From positions 291,738-325,375 of the forward strand of contig CASDYC010000001.1 in NCBI GenBank assembly GCA_949285665.1: DNA of 33,638 bases. Direction: 5' to 3'. The stretch's first letter is position 1. Each line of letters starts with the position of its first letter. Below are positions 1,921 through 8,501 of the stretch, one piece after another. Made by a program: the position numbers and the translations under genes. Source of the stretch: an uncultured bacterium. Lineage in GTDB: Bacteria > Bacillota_I > Bacilli_A > RFN20 > CAG-826. A model generated the notes under the pieces. It ran no database searches and was not told the origin of the DNA. It worked only from the letters and a program-made list of their open reading frames with translations.

Positions 1921-3810
1921 TTATAATATATCAATTTTTGTAATTTTAGAAATATATTCCAATAAATTTTTATCTTCACAATAAATGTAGCAACCTTTTT
2001 GTCCTCTAGTTAGCAAGACTTTATAAGTATTTTTTATAATTTTATCTGCAATTAATAAATAATTTGCTTTATGTTTCAATCCTTTTAACGATTGATCAGT
2101 TCTTGCTCTTTTGCTTGGATCTGTAACAACGTGATTGTTTTCGTATCGTAAATCTTTTCCAATAATTACACCAACATAGTCAAATTCTAATCCTTGCGAT
2201 GTATGAATACAGCCAACTTGATCAAAACTATCATCATCAATAGCCCATGTTGAAGTATTACTAAAGTTCCATTTGGCTTTAAAATTATCTTCTAATTTAA
2301 TGTCATATTCATCCGAATCATTTTTATCTTTTGTTATCCAATCATAACAATAACCAGCTAATATACGTGCTTTATTATTCCTGTTTTTCTTTTTTAGTTC
2401 TTCTTTTAATTTTGTCGGGCTACTAAAAAGTTTTAAATCGTAATCTAAATCAAAATCATAATTTGCAGTTTTTCTTATTTCTAATAAATTATCTATGAAA
2501 GCTAAATATCCATCTGAACCATTACATCTAAATTGACTTTTCAAATTTAAACTATCATCATATATAACTTTGCTTCTTTCAATATTTGCCCATCTTTTAA
2601 TTTCTTCAACACTTCCAATATCTGATGAAGTAACAATTTGATCTTCGTCTATAAAAAATACAGATACTCTTGATGCATGTATAATTTCTTTTATTTGATT
2701 TTCACCTAAATTTTTAAATATACCACTTTTTGAATTTAACCTGTGTGCTTCATCACAAACTATACAATCAAATTCATTTAATCTAGCATTAATAAAAGAA
2801 CCAGAACCAATAAAAAGACTTTTTAAATATCTTTTTTTATATTGATTTTCTATTAACTTTTTAAAGTAAACTTCTCTTGGTGAACTATTTTTTGAAGTAT
2901 AAACAGCAGATTTACCACTCGAAATCAAATCTTTTAAAAGTTGAATAGCTATTATACTTTTTCCTGTACCTGGTCCACCTTTAATAATTATTGTATATTT
3001 ACCATTTACATTATTGACATCTTTAGATAATTTTAAACTTTTATTAACAAGTGATTTTACAATCTCATAAGCAACCTTTTGTTCATCAATTAAATAAAAT
3101 TCTTGTTTTCCTTTAAATATATTACTTATTGCATCTTGCAACGATTTAGAAGGTTTTAATTTTCCGTTTTCAATTTGCATTAAAATATTAATATTATCTT
3201 CTTTTTTTATAAATTTTTTAATAAAATTTGTTAATTTAATTTCATCTCGACCTAAAAAAATAGGAGCTAAAGTTATTGCTTCTTTATAAAATTCATTGTC
3301 TATATGACTACGATTTGCTTCTTTATAATTATGTAAATACGCACAACTTTGAATTTTTATGTTATTTTTTTGAATTGTTTCATTAAAATTTTCAATGACT
3401 TTTGCATATGAATAAGCTTGATATGAAGGATGACAAACAAATCTATTAGAACCTCCAGTATAGGCATAAACAACATCAGGTCTATCAGTTTGTTTACTAT
3501 CTTCCCATTGTTTTAATTCAACTACGACAACATTGTTATTATTATATTCATCGCAGCCAGAAATTAAAAAATCTACTCTTTTAGAAGTTAATGGAATTTG
3601 ATATTCAATTGCAACTTTACATAAATCAGAAATTTCATTGTCATTTAAAACATCTCTCATAAATCGAAGAGAATTCATCCACGCTCTATACTCTCCTTCA
3701 TGACTATGTGGTATATGATGATTATTCATTTCATTTTCAATTACATCAGCAATTATACCTTGTCTTACATCATCAATGAAACCTCCTTTTGTATTTTGAT
3801 AAACAATCAT
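1921..3810 (-). CDS. PD-(D/E)XK nuclease fused to SF1-like helicase (DUF2075 type)
   Basis: This 629-residue protein has two parts. The N-terminal part (about 1-200) has a PD-(D/E)XK signature: Asp80 in KRVDFLISG, then Glu98-x-Lys100 in VVVELKQW. The C-terminal part is an SF1-like/DUF2075 motor: Walker A GGPGTGKS 278-285, Walker B CDEAHR 352-357, motif III FFIDEDQ 385-391, QFRCN about 426, HTSQGLEFD 536-544, and a motif VI-like LLTRGQKG about 599-606. Predicted role: ATP-driven DNA or RNA unwinding coupled to cleavage. The start overlaps the MazG-like gene stop by 4 nt (ATGA), so the two are translationally coupled. Location in a decayed island with an IS remnant fits a mobile defence or plasmid-type cassette. 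That role is inference; the motifs are visible. Confidence 0.8.
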   Translation of the reverse strand: MIVYQNTKGGFIDDVRQGIIADVIENEMNNHHIPHSHEGEYRAWMNSLRFMRDVLNDNEISDLCKVAIEYQIPLTSKRVDFLISGCDEYNNNNVVVVELKQWEDSKQTDRPDVVYAYTGGSNRFVCHPSYQAYSYAKVIENFNETIQKNNIKIQSCAYLHNYKEANRSHIDNEFYKEAITLAPIFLGRDEIKLTNFIKKFIKKEDNINILMQIENGKLKPSKSLQDAISNIFKGKQEFYLIDEQKVAYEIVKSLVNKSLKLSKDVNNVNGKYTIIIKGGPGTGKSIIAIQLLKDLISSGKSAVYTSKNSSPREVYFKKLIENQYKKRYLKSLFIGSGSFINARLNEFDCIVCDEAHRLNSKSGIFKNLGENQIKEIIHASRVSVFFIDEDQIVTSSDIGSVEEIKRWANIERSKVIYDDSLNLKSQFRCNGSDGYLAFIDNLLEIRKTANYDFDLDYDLKLFSSPTKLKEELKKKNRNNKARILAGYCYDWITKDKNDSDEYDIKLEDNFKAKWNFSNTSTWAIDDDSFDQVGCIHTSQGLEFDYVGVIIGKDLRYENNHVVTDPSKRARTDQSLKGLKHKANYLLIADKIIKNTYKVLLTRGQKGCYIYCEDKNLLEYISKITKIDIL

Positions 3811-4124
3811 TTAAATTCGTTCTCCTTATCAAGTGGATATTTTTCGGAATTCTTTTTTAATTTTTCATTTATTATTTCATCAATATTTAAATGATATTTT
3901 TCAGCAATTTGAACAGCATAAATAAAAACATCTGCAAGTTCTTCTTTTATTTTATTTAAACGATCAAGACGATCCAAATCAACATTATTCCATTGATAAA
4001 TTTCTAAAAGTTCAGAAGATTCTAAAGACAATGATAAAGCTAAATCTTTACCATTGTGGTATTTTTCCCAATTTCTATCTTTATTAAATTTATTTATTTT
4101 TTGAATTGTTTTATCTGAAAGCAT
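3807..4124 (-). CDS. MazG-like nucleotide pyrophosphohydrolase
   Basis: This 105-residue all-alpha protein is the usual single-domain MazG size. The metal-binding pattern ExxE...ExxD is present: E35-x2-E38 (LESSELLEIYQW) and E62-x2-D65 (EELADVFIY). The family hydrolyses (d)NTPs or nucleotide alarmones to the monophosphate plus PPi, in the cytosol with Mg2+. It is the first gene of the operon and overlaps the nuclease-helicase by 4 nt. The conserved coupling suggests it supplies or removes a nucleotide signal for that partner (inference). A good Shine-Dalgarno is not evident: AAGG lies only 2 nt before the ATG, so start choice is less certain. Confidence 0.85.
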   Translation of the reverse strand: MLSDKTIQKINKFNKDRNWEKYHNGKDLALSLSLESSELLEIYQWNNVDLDRLDRLNKIKEELADVFIYAVQIAEKYHLNIDEIINEKLKKNSEKYPLDKENEFK

Positions 4125-4334
4125 AACCTTTTTTATTATAACACTTATTATTTGATATAAAATTAAATTAATTTAACAATCAATTAAAGAACAAAAAATC
4201 CCAGCACTTTTGATAAAATATAAATAAAAAAGTCGATTAATATTTAATTTAAATGTCAAAGCGTGAATTATTTATTTTTTTGGTCTTTTAAAAAATTAAC
4301 ATAAATTTTGTTGCTAAATCATAGCATTGAAAGT

Positions 4335-4509
4335 TTACAAGTTCCCAACCATCTCTCCAAGTTTAGAACACATATCTTGGAGTTTTCTTTCAGAAGCTCC
4401 ACCCGTTATAAAATGTGCATTGACATTTAATGTTTTGTATTCCTATTTCATTATAAATTCCTAATGTTATTTTTTTAAAAATATCATAAATTTTACTGCG
4501 TAGAATAAC
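4335..4509 (-). pseudogene. frameshifted 3' remnant of an unrecognised gene
   Basis: Two coding-like pieces lie in different frames. Upstream is VILRSKIYDIFKKITLG and on to EIGIQ. After a frame change near 4440 comes TLNVNAHFITGGASERK through to MCSKLGEMVGNL, ending at TAA 4335-4337. Residue usage (Gly-Gly, Cys, Met, amphipathic helix) looks like real protein. I do not recognise the family. The iteron array lies directly upstream, so it may mark the old gene's promoter region. The stretch 4125-4334 shows nothing else beyond AT-rich upstream DNA of the MazG-like gene. Confidence 0.4.
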
Positions 4510-4525
4510 CTATTTTGATACAATT

Positions 4526-4573
4526 TGCGTACACCCCTCAAAAAGTGCGTACATTTTGCTGAAAATGCATACA
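4526..4573. repeat. three 8-bp iterons with exact 20-bp period
   Basis: TGCGTACA at 4526-4533, TGCGTACA at 4546-4553 and TGCATACA at 4566-4573. Spacing is exactly 20 bp, two helical turns, so all three face the same side of the DNA. Each unit is close to palindromic (TGYRTACA). This looks like an array bound cooperatively by a regulator or replication initiator. It lies between the ATPase gene's 3' side and the pseudogene at 4335-4509. Confidence 0.6.
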
Positions 4574-4831
4574 GCTAAAAAAAGACTAGAAGAATTGACT
4601 CTATCACAAACCGCATTGCTCACATTTAGCATTATCAACTTTATTTTTTTACAATACTTTTTGGTTTTATTATAAAAAAAATAGTCGCTGACCAAATAAC
4701 CCAGTCAAATGGTGAAAAAAGTTCAAACCCTCTTTTGGATAACAGTTATTTTTTTTATAGCCTTTTTCGCTTATATTTTCTCCCGTTAATAAATTATTTA
4801 TTTCTTAAATTATGAATATTATTTTGTTCTA

Positions 4832-5524
4832 TTAAAATAAAAGCCCTCTTTCTCTTAGATGTAATTTCCTTGAATTAGAATAATCTATTATCACTATCAT
4901 CATTAAACAATTTATTTTTGTTTTAATTTTATTACCTAAATCATCAAGAACAGTTACTTCACGTTTTTTGATTAGATTACAAAATGCTTCAATAATCTTA
5001 AGATCAAAACGATCATAATGATCAAAAAGCAAAATAGTATTCTCGTCGATACAATCAATAATCGCTTTAGAAAATATTAGTTCATCATCATTAGTAGATT
5101 CAATTAATGATTCTAGGTTCAAATGATGTTTAATGCAGTTTTCTTTGTTTATAGATTGAATTTTACCTTTATACAAAATGTAAAGTTCTTCTCCTCCATG
5201 GGCAACCATATCTTTAAACCAACCTTCATCGGCTTTCATAAAGCTTATATTCGCTTTTTCTAAATCAAAGTTTGCAATATTATTTGTCACAAATACTGAT
5301 CTTTGAAATTTATTAACAACGTTGTTTTCTTCTAGCCATTCAAGCACAATTGAAGATTTACCTGAACCCGTTAAACCTTCAATTGGAAGGACAGGCATCA
5401 ATCCTGGATTTTTCTTAGCCGATTCTAAAACTTCGTTTAATGCATTAACAATCGGATTAGATGAATCTAGTTTCTCATAGTCATCTTCAGTAATAATAAT
5501 GTCTTCGAATTTTTCTTTACTCAT
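4832..5524 (-). CDS. small P-loop (AAA-type) ATPase, partner of MORN protein; possibly truncated
   Basis: This 230-residue protein has Walker A GLTGSGKSS at 50-58, Walker B ILLFDHYD at 164-171 (Asp168), a sensor-1-like strand LMMIVIIDYSN about 207-217, and then SRKLHLRER, an arginine-finger-like element. The fold resembles AAA modules of the NPIVNALNEAL...PVxPIEGxxGSGKSS kind seen in phage and MoxR-like proteins. No lid domain follows. However, coding-like sequence continues past the stop in other frames (FILIEQNNIHNLRNK, then INNLLTGENISEKGY and on to about 4670), so the gene may be frameshifted. It lies 41 bp after the MORN gene on the same strand, with AAGG 9 nt before ATG. Its P-loop region matches the partner's degenerate C-terminus, so the two probably form a complex (inference). 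Confidence 0.7.
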   Translation of the reverse strand: MSKEKFEDIIITEDDYEKLDSSNPIVNALNEVLESAKKNPGLMPVLPIEGLTGSGKSSIVLEWLEENNVVNKFQRSVFVTNNIANFDLEKANISFMKADEGWFKDMVAHGGEELYILYKGKIQSINKENCIKHHLNLESLIESTNDDELIFSKAIIDCIDENTILLFDHYDRFDLKIIEAFCNLIKKREVTVLDDLGNKIKTKINCLMMIVIIDYSNSRKLHLRERGLLF

Positions 5525-5565
5525 TTTTCATACCTTCATTTTTAGACAAACTAATTAATTAATAA

Positions 5566-7422
5566 TCAATCCATATAAGGATCTAGATCTACCCTATATT
5601 CAGTAGAATGCATTTTCTCATCAATGTTCATTCCTAAATAAATATCAGCAATATTAGATTTTTCTACAAAAGCTATACGTTTATAACGCTTACCTAAAGT
5701 ACTAACGCAATAGATTGAGAACAAAAGATTTTCACTATAATCTCCATCAAGACATTCATTAGTTAAAGCTATTAAATCTAATCTTATATTTATGCTCGCT
5801 TCATCGTATCCATGAATTAACAAAACGCATTTGTTCTTGTAAATCGGATTTTTTAACTTTTCGAATAATTGATTTTTATCGTAGCTATAAGCATCTGTTT
5901 GAATTAATTCTAATCTCTTTTCTTTGCACCATTTTAAAACTATAGGATCAACTGTAAACTCATGAAGCCCTTCAATATAAACATTGTTCCCTTTCGGTGA
6001 AACATTATTTGATGTTTGTCCCTCTCTTTTTCCTCTATATGCTGTCTTTCTTTCATAAGCGAAATTTAGTCCATCAATAATATTTTGCCTATAAGTTTCT
6101 TTATTCATATTTATGATATTCTTTTTGATAATCCATTTTCCGTTTTTAGAGAAAATTCCATTAACAAATTCTCCTTCATAAATAGATCCATTTTTTAACC
6201 ATATGCATCCATTACCATGAGGAACACCATCTTTTATATCCCCTTCATATTTTATTCCCAAAGCATCAAACAGCATGCCATATCCTGTTGGTTGAAAAAA
6301 ACGTAGACCCTGAACTCCAATATAATTTGATTTAAAATTTCCTTCATATATACATGCATTAAGATAATAAGTCTTATCTCCAAAGTGCCCGTCACGGACA
6401 TATGTTATACGGCCTTGAAATTGTTTTTTCTCGGGTAAAAAGTCACCATCTATAAAAAAATGACTATCAAAATCTTGTGTTTCAAAGTCTAACAAAAATG
6501 AATATTGTTGACCAACACAATACTCTCCGTCTTTAAAGAATCCATCAACGAATATGGATCCTGTTGAAAATTCATCTACCGAAGTCAAGTACAAGCAACC
6601 TAATCTATTTGGCTTATATTCATTTTTGTGATTTTTAAATTCCCTTACAAATTCACCTTCGTATTTTTCTATATTGTAAGAATTATAATCACCTGAGTAG
6701 CTATATATAATTGCCTTATCGTTTTCATCATCATTTTCATAAGGATCGGCTTGGATTCTACTTATAGACATGGAATTTTTTTGTTCAAACTTCCATTTCA
6801 TCTTTAAATCATAAATTTCTTCAAATTCGCTTAAAGAATTAAATTTTATACCATCCGCTCCATAGACTATGCATTCTTCTGCAGGGATACCATCAGAAAA
6901 ATAACCTTCATATTTATTAACTCCATTATGAAAAATACCTTTTCCATTAATTTTTCCGTCAAGAAATTCTCCGGAATACTTTCCTTCAGCATTATGAAAA
7001 CTTTTATCTATACAACTTATTTTATTAACATATTCATAGGAAACTCGATTAATTACGCCATATAAGGTTCCTTTACCATGAGGCACTTCATTTTTAAATT
7101 CTCCAACGTACTTATTGCCATCTTGATACCAAAATGTTCCTGAGCAATCTACTCTATGGTCATTAGAAAATTCACCTTCATATTTATCACCATTAAAATA
7201 CCAATAGATACCATGTCCTGATTTTAAATCATTAACAAAGTTACCCTGATACTTATCTCCATTAGAATACCACATTGTGCCAAAGCCATTACGTAAGCCA
7301 TACTCAAAGTGGCCTTCATACTTAGATCCATCATCATAATAAATAATGCCATCGCCTACACTAGTAAAAGCTTTGGAACCTTTTCCTACAATCACTTCTT
7401 TTCCATCACATATTATTTTCAT
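5566..7422 (-). CDS. MORN-repeat protein with degenerate ATPase-like C-terminal domain
   Basis: This 618-residue protein has about 9-11 MORN repeats (YEGxFxxGxxxGxG pattern) at residues 35-185, 254-270 and 355-430. Clear units include YEGHFEYGLRNGFG, YEGEFVNGIFSKNG and YEGDIKDGVPHGNG. Residues about 481-618 align by eye with the downstream ATPase: YIEGLHEFTVDPIVLKW against PIEGLTGSGKSSIVLEW. Walker A is lost (GSGKSS replaced by EFTVDP), and the Walker B position is VLLIHGYD with His instead of Asp. So this is a pseudo-ATPase fused to MORN repeats. MORN repeats bind membranes or proteins in known cases. There is no signal peptide or TM segment. Codon use appears less AT-rich than the core genes. 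An AGGAG lies 13 nt upstream of the ATG, a long gap. Function unknown. Confidence 0.75.
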   Translation of the reverse strand: MKIICDGKEVIVGKGSKAFTSVGDGIIYYDDGSKYEGHFEYGLRNGFGTMWYSNGDKYQGNFVNDLKSGHGIYWYFNGDKYEGEFSNDHRVDCSGTFWYQDGNKYVGEFKNEVPHGKGTLYGVINRVSYEYVNKISCIDKSFHNAEGKYSGEFLDGKINGKGIFHNGVNKYEGYFSDGIPAEECIVYGADGIKFNSLSEFEEIYDLKMKWKFEQKNSMSISRIQADPYENDDENDKAIIYSYSGDYNSYNIEKYEGEFVREFKNHKNEYKPNRLGCLYLTSVDEFSTGSIFVDGFFKDGEYCVGQQYSFLLDFETQDFDSHFFIDGDFLPEKKQFQGRITYVRDGHFGDKTYYLNACIYEGNFKSNYIGVQGLRFFQPTGYGMLFDALGIKYEGDIKDGVPHGNGCIWLKNGSIYEGEFVNGIFSKNGKWIIKKNIINMNKETYRQNIIDGLNFAYERKTAYRGKREGQTSNNVSPKGNNVYIEGLHEFTVDPIVLKWCKEKRLELIQTDAYSYDKNQLFEKLKNPIYKNKCVLLIHGYDEASINIRLDLIALTNECLDGDYSENLLFSIYCVSTLGKRYKRIAFVEKSNIADIYLGMNIDEKMHSTEYRVDLDPYMD

Positions 7423-7448
7423 AAGTAAGTAGATACTCCTATATAGAC

Positions 7449-7478
7449 AGTTTACACGCCCTCCCCGTATCGTTTCAA
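7449..7478 (-). promoter_or_regulatory. candidate promoter of the MORN/ATPase operon
   Basis: TTGAAA (7478-7473) and TAAACT (7454-7449) are separated by 18 bp, 26 bp before the MORN protein start. The -10 is only moderately like TATAAT. The spacer is GC-rich for this DNA (GATACGGGGAGGGCG). Confidence 0.35.
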
Positions 7479-7523
7479 GAAAATTTTTTTGTCACTAAGC
7501 ATATTTCCCTTGCTGAACTGCTA

Positions 7524-7829
7524 TTAATAAAGTAGACACAAATAATGATTAACAATTGAAGAAGAAATTAATTTTTCAAAATACAAATAAGGAAAATTAA
7601 CTAAGCATAGCTCATAAGAAGAACTTTCCTTTAGTCTTTCTAACGTCAACTCTTTCCATGCTTCTGATGAAGTAAATTTGTTAAAAATCGTTTTCCCTTC
7701 TCTAAAAAAATGCCACGCAAATGGTTTATTATTTAATAAATCTAAATTAAATTCACTGTTTTCTTTTCTTTAACCATCATTGTAAGGTCCAAAATAAATA
7801 TAATTTAAAATATTTTCTTCTTTTTCCAT
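7524..7829 (-). pseudogene. small unrecognised gene interrupted by an internal TAA
   Basis: ATG 7829 has AAGGAAAAT directly before it. The frame runs 19 codons (MEKEENILNYIYFGPYNDG), meets TAA at 7770-7772, then continues in the same frame for 81 codons (RKENSEFNLDLLNNKPFAWH, FREGKTIFNKFTSSEAWKEL and so on) to TAA 7524-7526. The downstream part looks like real protein rich in aromatics. I do not recognise the family. It precedes the MORN operon on the same strand and may be a lost third component or an unrelated remnant. The interval 7830-8070 is AT-rich with no coding signal that I can support. Confidence 0.45.
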
Positions 7830-8070
7830 GTTATTTTCCTTTTGTTTTAGTGTTTGATTTAACTCATATTAGTAAACTTGCCGTTGATAATAAATAGCGT
7901 AAGAAATATCTAGAGTTTAAAATTTTTAAAAGTAGATAAAAAGGCATCGAGAAAACATATGTACTAATTTATAACTTTTTTTAGTAAATTAATTTTAAAA
8001 ACAGGAATTTTTTGTTAAAAATTGCATTTTTTAATAAACATATAGTGGTAAAGTAGAGTGGTTGGTGTAT

Positions 8071-8326
8071 TGCCACTTTTAAAGCACGTTCCGACTCAGT
8101 CATTTTACGATCTCTATTTGTTATAACCCTAGATATATCGTCTTATACTTTTAGGCTCATCTAAATTTAAGACTCTCTTGTATATAACATCTCTTTTTTA
8201 TTACCGATAGTGAATTTTTATATTCACAGTGATGAAGAAATTACTTTCCTTAATATCAATCGTCTTATCACGTAAGCCTTTAGCAACTTCTAATAAACCA
8301 GATTCATACACTTCTACACTATAAGC
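8071..8326 (-). pseudogene. decayed coding remnant, several frames
   Basis: Three protein-like pieces lie in different frames: SVEVYESGLLEVAKGLRDKT through to ITVNIKIHYR (8201-8320), then RVLNLDEPKSI (from 8176), then DDISRVITNRDRKMTESERALKVA (to about 8071). Together they look like one ancestral gene broken by indels. Family not recognised. The interval 8327-8424 shows nothing more. The remnant abuts the tRNA-Glu 3' end, as expected for island DNA. Confidence 0.35.
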
Positions 8327-8424
8327 TCACTCATAATTTGTGATAAAAGATTAAATAGACTTTATGTTATTTTTTCTCTTCAATCATATTCTTAAATTTT
8401 ATTAATGCTGATTTGTTTAAATTA

Positions 8425-8501
8425 TGGTGATCTGTACGGGATTCGGACCCGTGAATGACGCCTTGAGAGGGCGTTGAGTTAAACCACTTCTCCAACAGAC
8501 C
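8425..8501 (-). tRNA. tRNA-Glu(CTC)
   Basis: This is a 77-nt cloverleaf with CCA encoded. The acceptor is GGTCTGT/ACAGATC (one G-T), the D arm is GAG...CTC with GG in the loop, the anticodon arm is ACGCC-CTCTCAA-GGCGT (anticodon CTC, Glu), the variable loop is CATTC, and the T arm is ACGGG-TCCGAAT-CCCGT. The body resembles Firmicute tRNA-Glu. It is odd that the T loop reads TCC instead of TTC, so position 55 is C, not the nearly universal U that becomes pseudouridine. It lies just downstream of gltX, its cognate synthetase, on the same strand. Its 3' end faces the accessory island. Confidence 0.85.

Follow-up and report, generated by a model that had tools for sequence, protein, structure and literature searches.

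What is encoded by a pair of adjacent genes in which one product carries a P-loop and the other joins an array of MORN repeats to a C-terminal domain that resembles the P-loop protein but is stripped of its nucleotide-binding motifs? The pair lies in the window, the whole stretch of 33,638 nucleotides that was analyzed, within an AT-rich 1.03-Mb genome of the same family as the rumen Erysipelotrichaceae metagenome-assembled genome (MAG) G204. On the minus strand, the MORN gene (7422-5566) is followed after 41 nt by the P-loop gene (5524-4832), and Shine-Dalgarno-like sites are present ahead of both genes. An earlier note on this DNA proposed that a single operon codes for an active ATPase and for a dead copy of that ATPase fused to about ten MORN repeats. 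The features on which the analysis turns are the following.

5566 to 7422, minus strand: 618-aa protein with ~10 MORN repeats (residues ~35-435) and a C-terminal AAA+ pseudo-domain (ORF, PF02493, repeat units).
5566 to 6117, minus strand: degenerate MoxR-like AAA+ domain, residues 436-618 of the MORN protein (profile and shuffle test, hhalign, BLASTP, AlphaFold model).
5525 to 5565, minus strand: 41-nt intergenic gap with a Shine-Dalgarno-like TGAAGG before the second gene and no terminator-like site (sequence, terminator scan).
4832 to 5524, minus strand: 230-aa lidless MoxR-like P-loop protein (ORF, profile 30.3 bits, hhalign E 7e-10, model and fold matches).
8425 to 8501, minus strand: tRNA-Glu(CTC), beside a variable segment (ARAGORN, Rfam).

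The 618-aa protein contains tandem MORN repeats, with a PF02493 match of 1.7e-19 (68.9 bits; cut-off 22.5). Five MORN stretches each pass PF02493 alone, and approximately ten Y-x-G units are found, in agreement with the number given in the earlier note. MORN repeats are modules of protein–protein interaction and dimerization, and the window array, like the tandem arrays of TbMORN1 and its relatives, would be expected to be elongated, to bind protein and to dimerize (PMC7725318). TbMORN1 consists of repeats only, whereas the window array ends in an AAA+ pseudo-domain (PMC7725318). This C-terminal domain was not seen in the MORN proteins of relatives, whose sequences were read by eye.

The AAA+ cores of the two proteins gave no match above cut-off in Pfam, NCBIfam, PADLOC, PHROGs and PDB sequence searches. 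Their family was identified using a P-loop DNA pattern, G[LIMV][TP]G[ST]GK[ST].IV..W, that was scanned in viral contigs and in the whole genome collection. Four viral contigs match the pattern, as do three genome contigs (L035, L036 and L037), and a MoxR-type AAA+ family is encoded by all four viral matches and by one genome contig (L036). The L036 relative matches Pfam AAA_5 and AAA_3 and adjoins an M48-like metallopeptidase, and the relative from a Vibrio phage carries the annotation 'putative MoxR-like ATPase'. A second DNA pattern, [IV]EGL(7)IV..WC, returned only the same MoxR family and one unrelated frame from the viral contigs. Six phage-type MoxR AAA+ domains were combined into a MoxR profile.

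The C-terminal domain of the MORN protein (residues 436-618) scores 32.2 bits against the phage MoxR AAA+ profile, compared with a maximum of 7.1 bits in 2,000 shuffles. Because the MoxR family had been found through the shared motif, the post-motif part was scored separately, and it reaches 17.4 bits by itself (shuffle maximum 8.3). The domain also aligns with the phage MoxR family in hhalign (E 8e-9) and with L031 in BLASTP (6e-8, an E-value for one comparison). When the MoxR profile was run on 958 open frames as controls, only the neighboring ATPase and its relatives scored above the C-terminal domain. Apart from the two window proteins, the only one to exceed 20 bits was the small ATPase of G204, a single locus that occurs under three ids. 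A Pfam match of the domain to GAP1-M (0.015, below cut-off) was treated as chance.

In the AlphaFold model of the C-terminal domain (183 residues), the core has pLDDT values of ~80-95 and its elements are arranged in AAA+ order, whereas model residues 142-183 have pLDDT values below 50. The Foldseek and VIA matches of the model are AAA+ proteins, with HslU and ClpX first. Fold rankings cannot tell MoxR apart from the remaining AAA+ clades, and sequence is the basis on which the domain is assigned to MoxR. The best structure match has a Z value of 12.2 and an rmsd value of 3.1 over 148 residues. This agreement lends support to the sequence result and is not independent of it, because the input alignments of the AlphaFold models contained AAA+ sequences. 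The nucleotide site itself is lost. The Walker A motif is replaced by GLHEFTVDP (from residue 485) at the position of GLPGSGKT in relatives, and the Walker B region reads VLLIHGYD (from residue 533), in which H-G stands for D-E. Arg579 aligns with the invariant arginine-finger column of MoxR proteins, in a stretch with pLDDT below 50. Judged from profile and model together, the C-terminal domain is a true, divergent AAA+ domain without its nucleotide-site motifs. The earlier note was right on these points: the domain belongs to the same superfamily as the neighbor, is fused to MORN repeats and has lost both Walker A and Walker B. A degenerate AAA+ domain that is invisible to Pfam thus proves recognizable through phage relatives.

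The 230-aa protein scores 30.3 bits against the phage MoxR profile (maximum of 11.7 in 2,000 shuffles) and matches the MoxR family in hhalign (E 7e-10). Its post-P-loop part is weaker, with 13.4 bits against a shuffle maximum of 12.6. The model of the protein has a mean pLDDT of 57, and its structure matches are AAA+ proteins, including the MoxR protein NorQ (Z 11.1). The Walker A motif is intact (GLTGSGKS, residues 50-57), as would suit an ordinary active ATPase accompanied by a MORN-fused regulatory dead paralogue, which is how the earlier note explained the pair. Mixtures of active and dead subunits are also known in other AAA+ assemblies. However, the remainder of the site departs from that of an active enzyme. 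In the Walker B motif (LFDHYDR), the catalytic Glu is changed to His, giving D-H for the D-E that is invariant in five of five aligned phage-type relatives. The sensor-1 Asn is changed to Asp (IDY vs INP in phage relatives), and the arginine-finger stretch is degraded (RERGLLF vs AE..RF in relatives). The C-terminal all-alpha lid with sensor 2 is absent; the protein ends directly after the sensor-1/arginine-finger region, and no open continuation was seen in any frame. In NorQ, a single Walker B change, E109Q, left ~2% activity (PMC9976466). Because of these substitutions and the NorQ precedent, an active ATPase is doubtful and its combination with a regulatory dead paralogue is very unlikely. 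As read from its sequence, the 230-aa protein is a lidless MoxR-like P-loop protein and probably not a normal active ATPase.

The short form of the 230-aa protein is not a fresh truncation, given that an intact short relative exists in another genome. This relative, at locus L029 of G204, has 142 residues and a D-N Walker B motif. A second locus in G204 (L028:5328-5624) contains a C-terminal fragment akin to the 230-aa protein (DDYGRF, NPLMMIVVLD); it has stop codons upstream and is probably a decayed relative.

The relation between the two AAA+ cores is apparent mainly by way of the phage proteins. The alignment by eye in the earlier note, YIEGL-HEFTVDP-IVLKW (from residue 482) with PIEGL-TGSGKSS-IVLEW, is exact in its letters, but the match alone is not significant. 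A BLASTP comparison of the C-terminal domain with the 230-aa protein gave an E-value of 0.45, and the profile–profile comparison of the domain with the ATPase's own small family gave an hhalign probability of 4.9%. In an all-against-all BLASTP, the two cores score 19 bits against each other, whereas their scores against phage-type domains reach 39 and 33 bits; a direct duplication of one core from the other is unsupported on this score. The core-to-core match becomes significant because third-party phage MoxR domains link both cores. The nearest relatives of each core are thus the MoxR ATPases of phages and not its partner core, and the description of the C-terminal domain as a dead copy of its neighbor is not supported. 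On these alignments, the two cores are divergent members of one MoxR family.

In target remodeling, the typical partner of a MoxR ATPase is a vWA protein (PMC9976466, PMC13036017). In a survey of jumbo phages, a MoxR-vWA-metallopeptidase set was described and a role in virion assembly was proposed (PMC7824862). These large-phage sets (PMC7824862; L031-L034, L036, L040) resemble the window pair in that their AAA+ proteins are of the same family as both cores and in the two-part combination of an NTPase with a partner protein. In contrast to them, the pair has no recognized vWA or peptidase partner and no lid, has lost catalytic residues, and has a MORN array instead. The MoxR-vWA chaperones NorQ/NorD and RavA/ViaA likewise combine a MoxR-type core with an accessory partner (PMC9976466, PMC6987120). 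NorQ, however, has the full motif set and forms a hexamer, whereas the 230-aa protein is devoid of the Walker B Glu, the sensor-1 Asn and the lid, and its presumed partner is MORN-based. No vWA gene was recognized among the neighbors scanned, a part of the window ORFs that was compared to Pfam. The combination of a MORN arm and a dead AAA+ core beside a mini-MoxR is an unusual design, and a literature search, with most subscription papers outside its coverage, found no paper joining MORN, MoxR and AAA+.

A second pair of this kind was not found with the ATPase as query in 146 genomes of the family, 279 of the order and 392 of the phylum, with the profile of its small family in 346 genomes of the class, or with the full-length MORN protein in 273 genomes of the order. 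The C-terminal domain, searched in 146 and 346 genomes, also yielded no second pair and produced only weak matches, mostly in broken frames. Searches of phages and plasmids gave the same result. The genome sets overlap and are all from one phylum, and the whole collection was scanned by one P-loop DNA pattern only, which distant or P-loop-variant pairs could escape. Near the matches of that pattern, no MORN gene was seen among the ORFs read at L036 and L037, and L035 was read at the match only. Since no second pair was found, the argument for joint function is drawn from adjacency and shared composition.

The composition of the pair differs from that of its surroundings. GC3 is 0.20 in both pair genes, compared with 0.08-0.12 in the 16 other window genes measured, and the fit to host codon usage is worst for these two among the window genes measured. 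In several relatives, the gltX gene stays together with the genes on its far side, and the side on which the pair lies varies between genomes. Because the foreign GC3 and codon usage are shared and the slot by gltX and tRNA-Glu is variable, the pair was probably imported as a unit; by composition and position, the two genes are probably one horizontally acquired cassette. The one-operon proposal of the earlier note is consistent with the common strand, the 41-nt gap and the lack of a terminator, and the genes have the look of a jointly imported cassette, but the conserved adjacent pair that it anticipated was not encountered in the family, order, class or phylum genome sets, phages or plasmids.

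An imported origin would also fit a decaying mobile-element or prophage remnant, in which phage- or island-borne MoxR-derived genes are losing function and have no present role. The catalytic residues are gone from both AAA+ sites, the codon usage is foreign, no second pair was found, and the rumen relative in G204 is reduced to the C-terminal fragment with its upstream stop codons. The flanks of the pair (4125-4831 and 7423-8424) are without a long ORF. Upstream of the MORN gene, an open frame near 7490-7834 (minus strand) is interrupted by one in-frame stop, matches nothing in Pfam and is probably a decayed gene. However, both pair genes are uninterrupted, with 230 and 618 codons and Shine-Dalgarno-like sites, the MORN periodicity and the complete order of the AAA+ core are retained, and the short relative at L029 is intact. 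Decay is a serious rival, although an unlikely one.

The variable slot beside a tRNA gene is a setting that would also suit an anti-phage or conflict module, in which an invader protein would be detected by the MORN arm and the signal relayed by the two MoxR-like NTPases. MoxR-vWA ternary systems have been described as conflict systems (PMC7159879, PMC10910872). The neighbors of the pair include a Schlafen-group-3 helicase gene (1921-4124, minus strand), with PADLOC PDC-S41 and AbiO matches, and a MazG-like gene that it overlaps, which form a possible defense pair. The GC3 values of these two genes are host-like (0.10-0.11), however, and for this reason they are probably outside the imported unit and probably arrived separately from it. 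Neither of the two pair proteins matches any PADLOC model, and the pair has no effector domain. A function of the pair in defense is rather unlikely. To the left of the window, L030:8704-10983 encodes a protein of 759 aa that weakly matches a NACHT-like P-loop close to the C-terminus.

The preferred reading, with a probability of roughly 0.4, is that the pair is a nucleotide-gated, MoxR-derived adaptor or scaffold in which the MORN arm holds a target protein. The cassette would derive from MoxR-type AAA+ machinery such as large phages combine with vWA and metallopeptidase proteins. The two AAA+ cores may pack together into a heterodimer or a mixed ring, in which the sole nucleotide site would be that of the 230-aa protein. 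Nucleotide binding at this site, with slow hydrolysis or none, could act as a switch. The arm gripping a specific protein partner, in the usual role of the vWA protein, would be the MORN array. Such a pair would be a nucleotide-gated adaptor or scaffold and not a processive motor. Counted against the adaptor reading are the failure to find a second pair, which leaves it without evolutionary evidence of joint work, and the insignificant direct similarity of the cores (BLASTP E 0.45; hhalign 4.9%).

AAA+ assemblies with a dead subunit exist, an example being the delta-prime subunit of the clamp loader, which has no nucleotide site of its own and could complete that of its neighbor; for the window pair, we only infer a complex and a trans site. 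Arg579 of the dead domain, located in a low-confidence part of the model, might complete the nucleotide site in trans. This arginine finger is speculative because of the mean pLDDT of 57 in the 230-aa model and the values below 50 at residues 142-183 of the C-terminal model. A new asymmetric AAA+ device, in which a nucleotide-binding but hydrolysis-impaired mini-MoxR, a dead core giving a trans arginine finger and a MORN target arm make up an imported switch, is distinctly improbable. If the adaptor is real, it would represent MoxR chaperone machinery pared down to a switch of two parts, in which a MORN array replaces the vWA partner. It would also give a testable role to the MORN proteins of bacteria, a group with poorly characterized roles.

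A MORN gene was also observed in a different setting in the relative genome G025. There, L059:389-6362 contains vWA, PP2C and protein-kinase genes followed by the gene of a 586-aa MORN protein, and the gene set resembles a TerY-type phosphorylation triad to which a MORN protein belongs.
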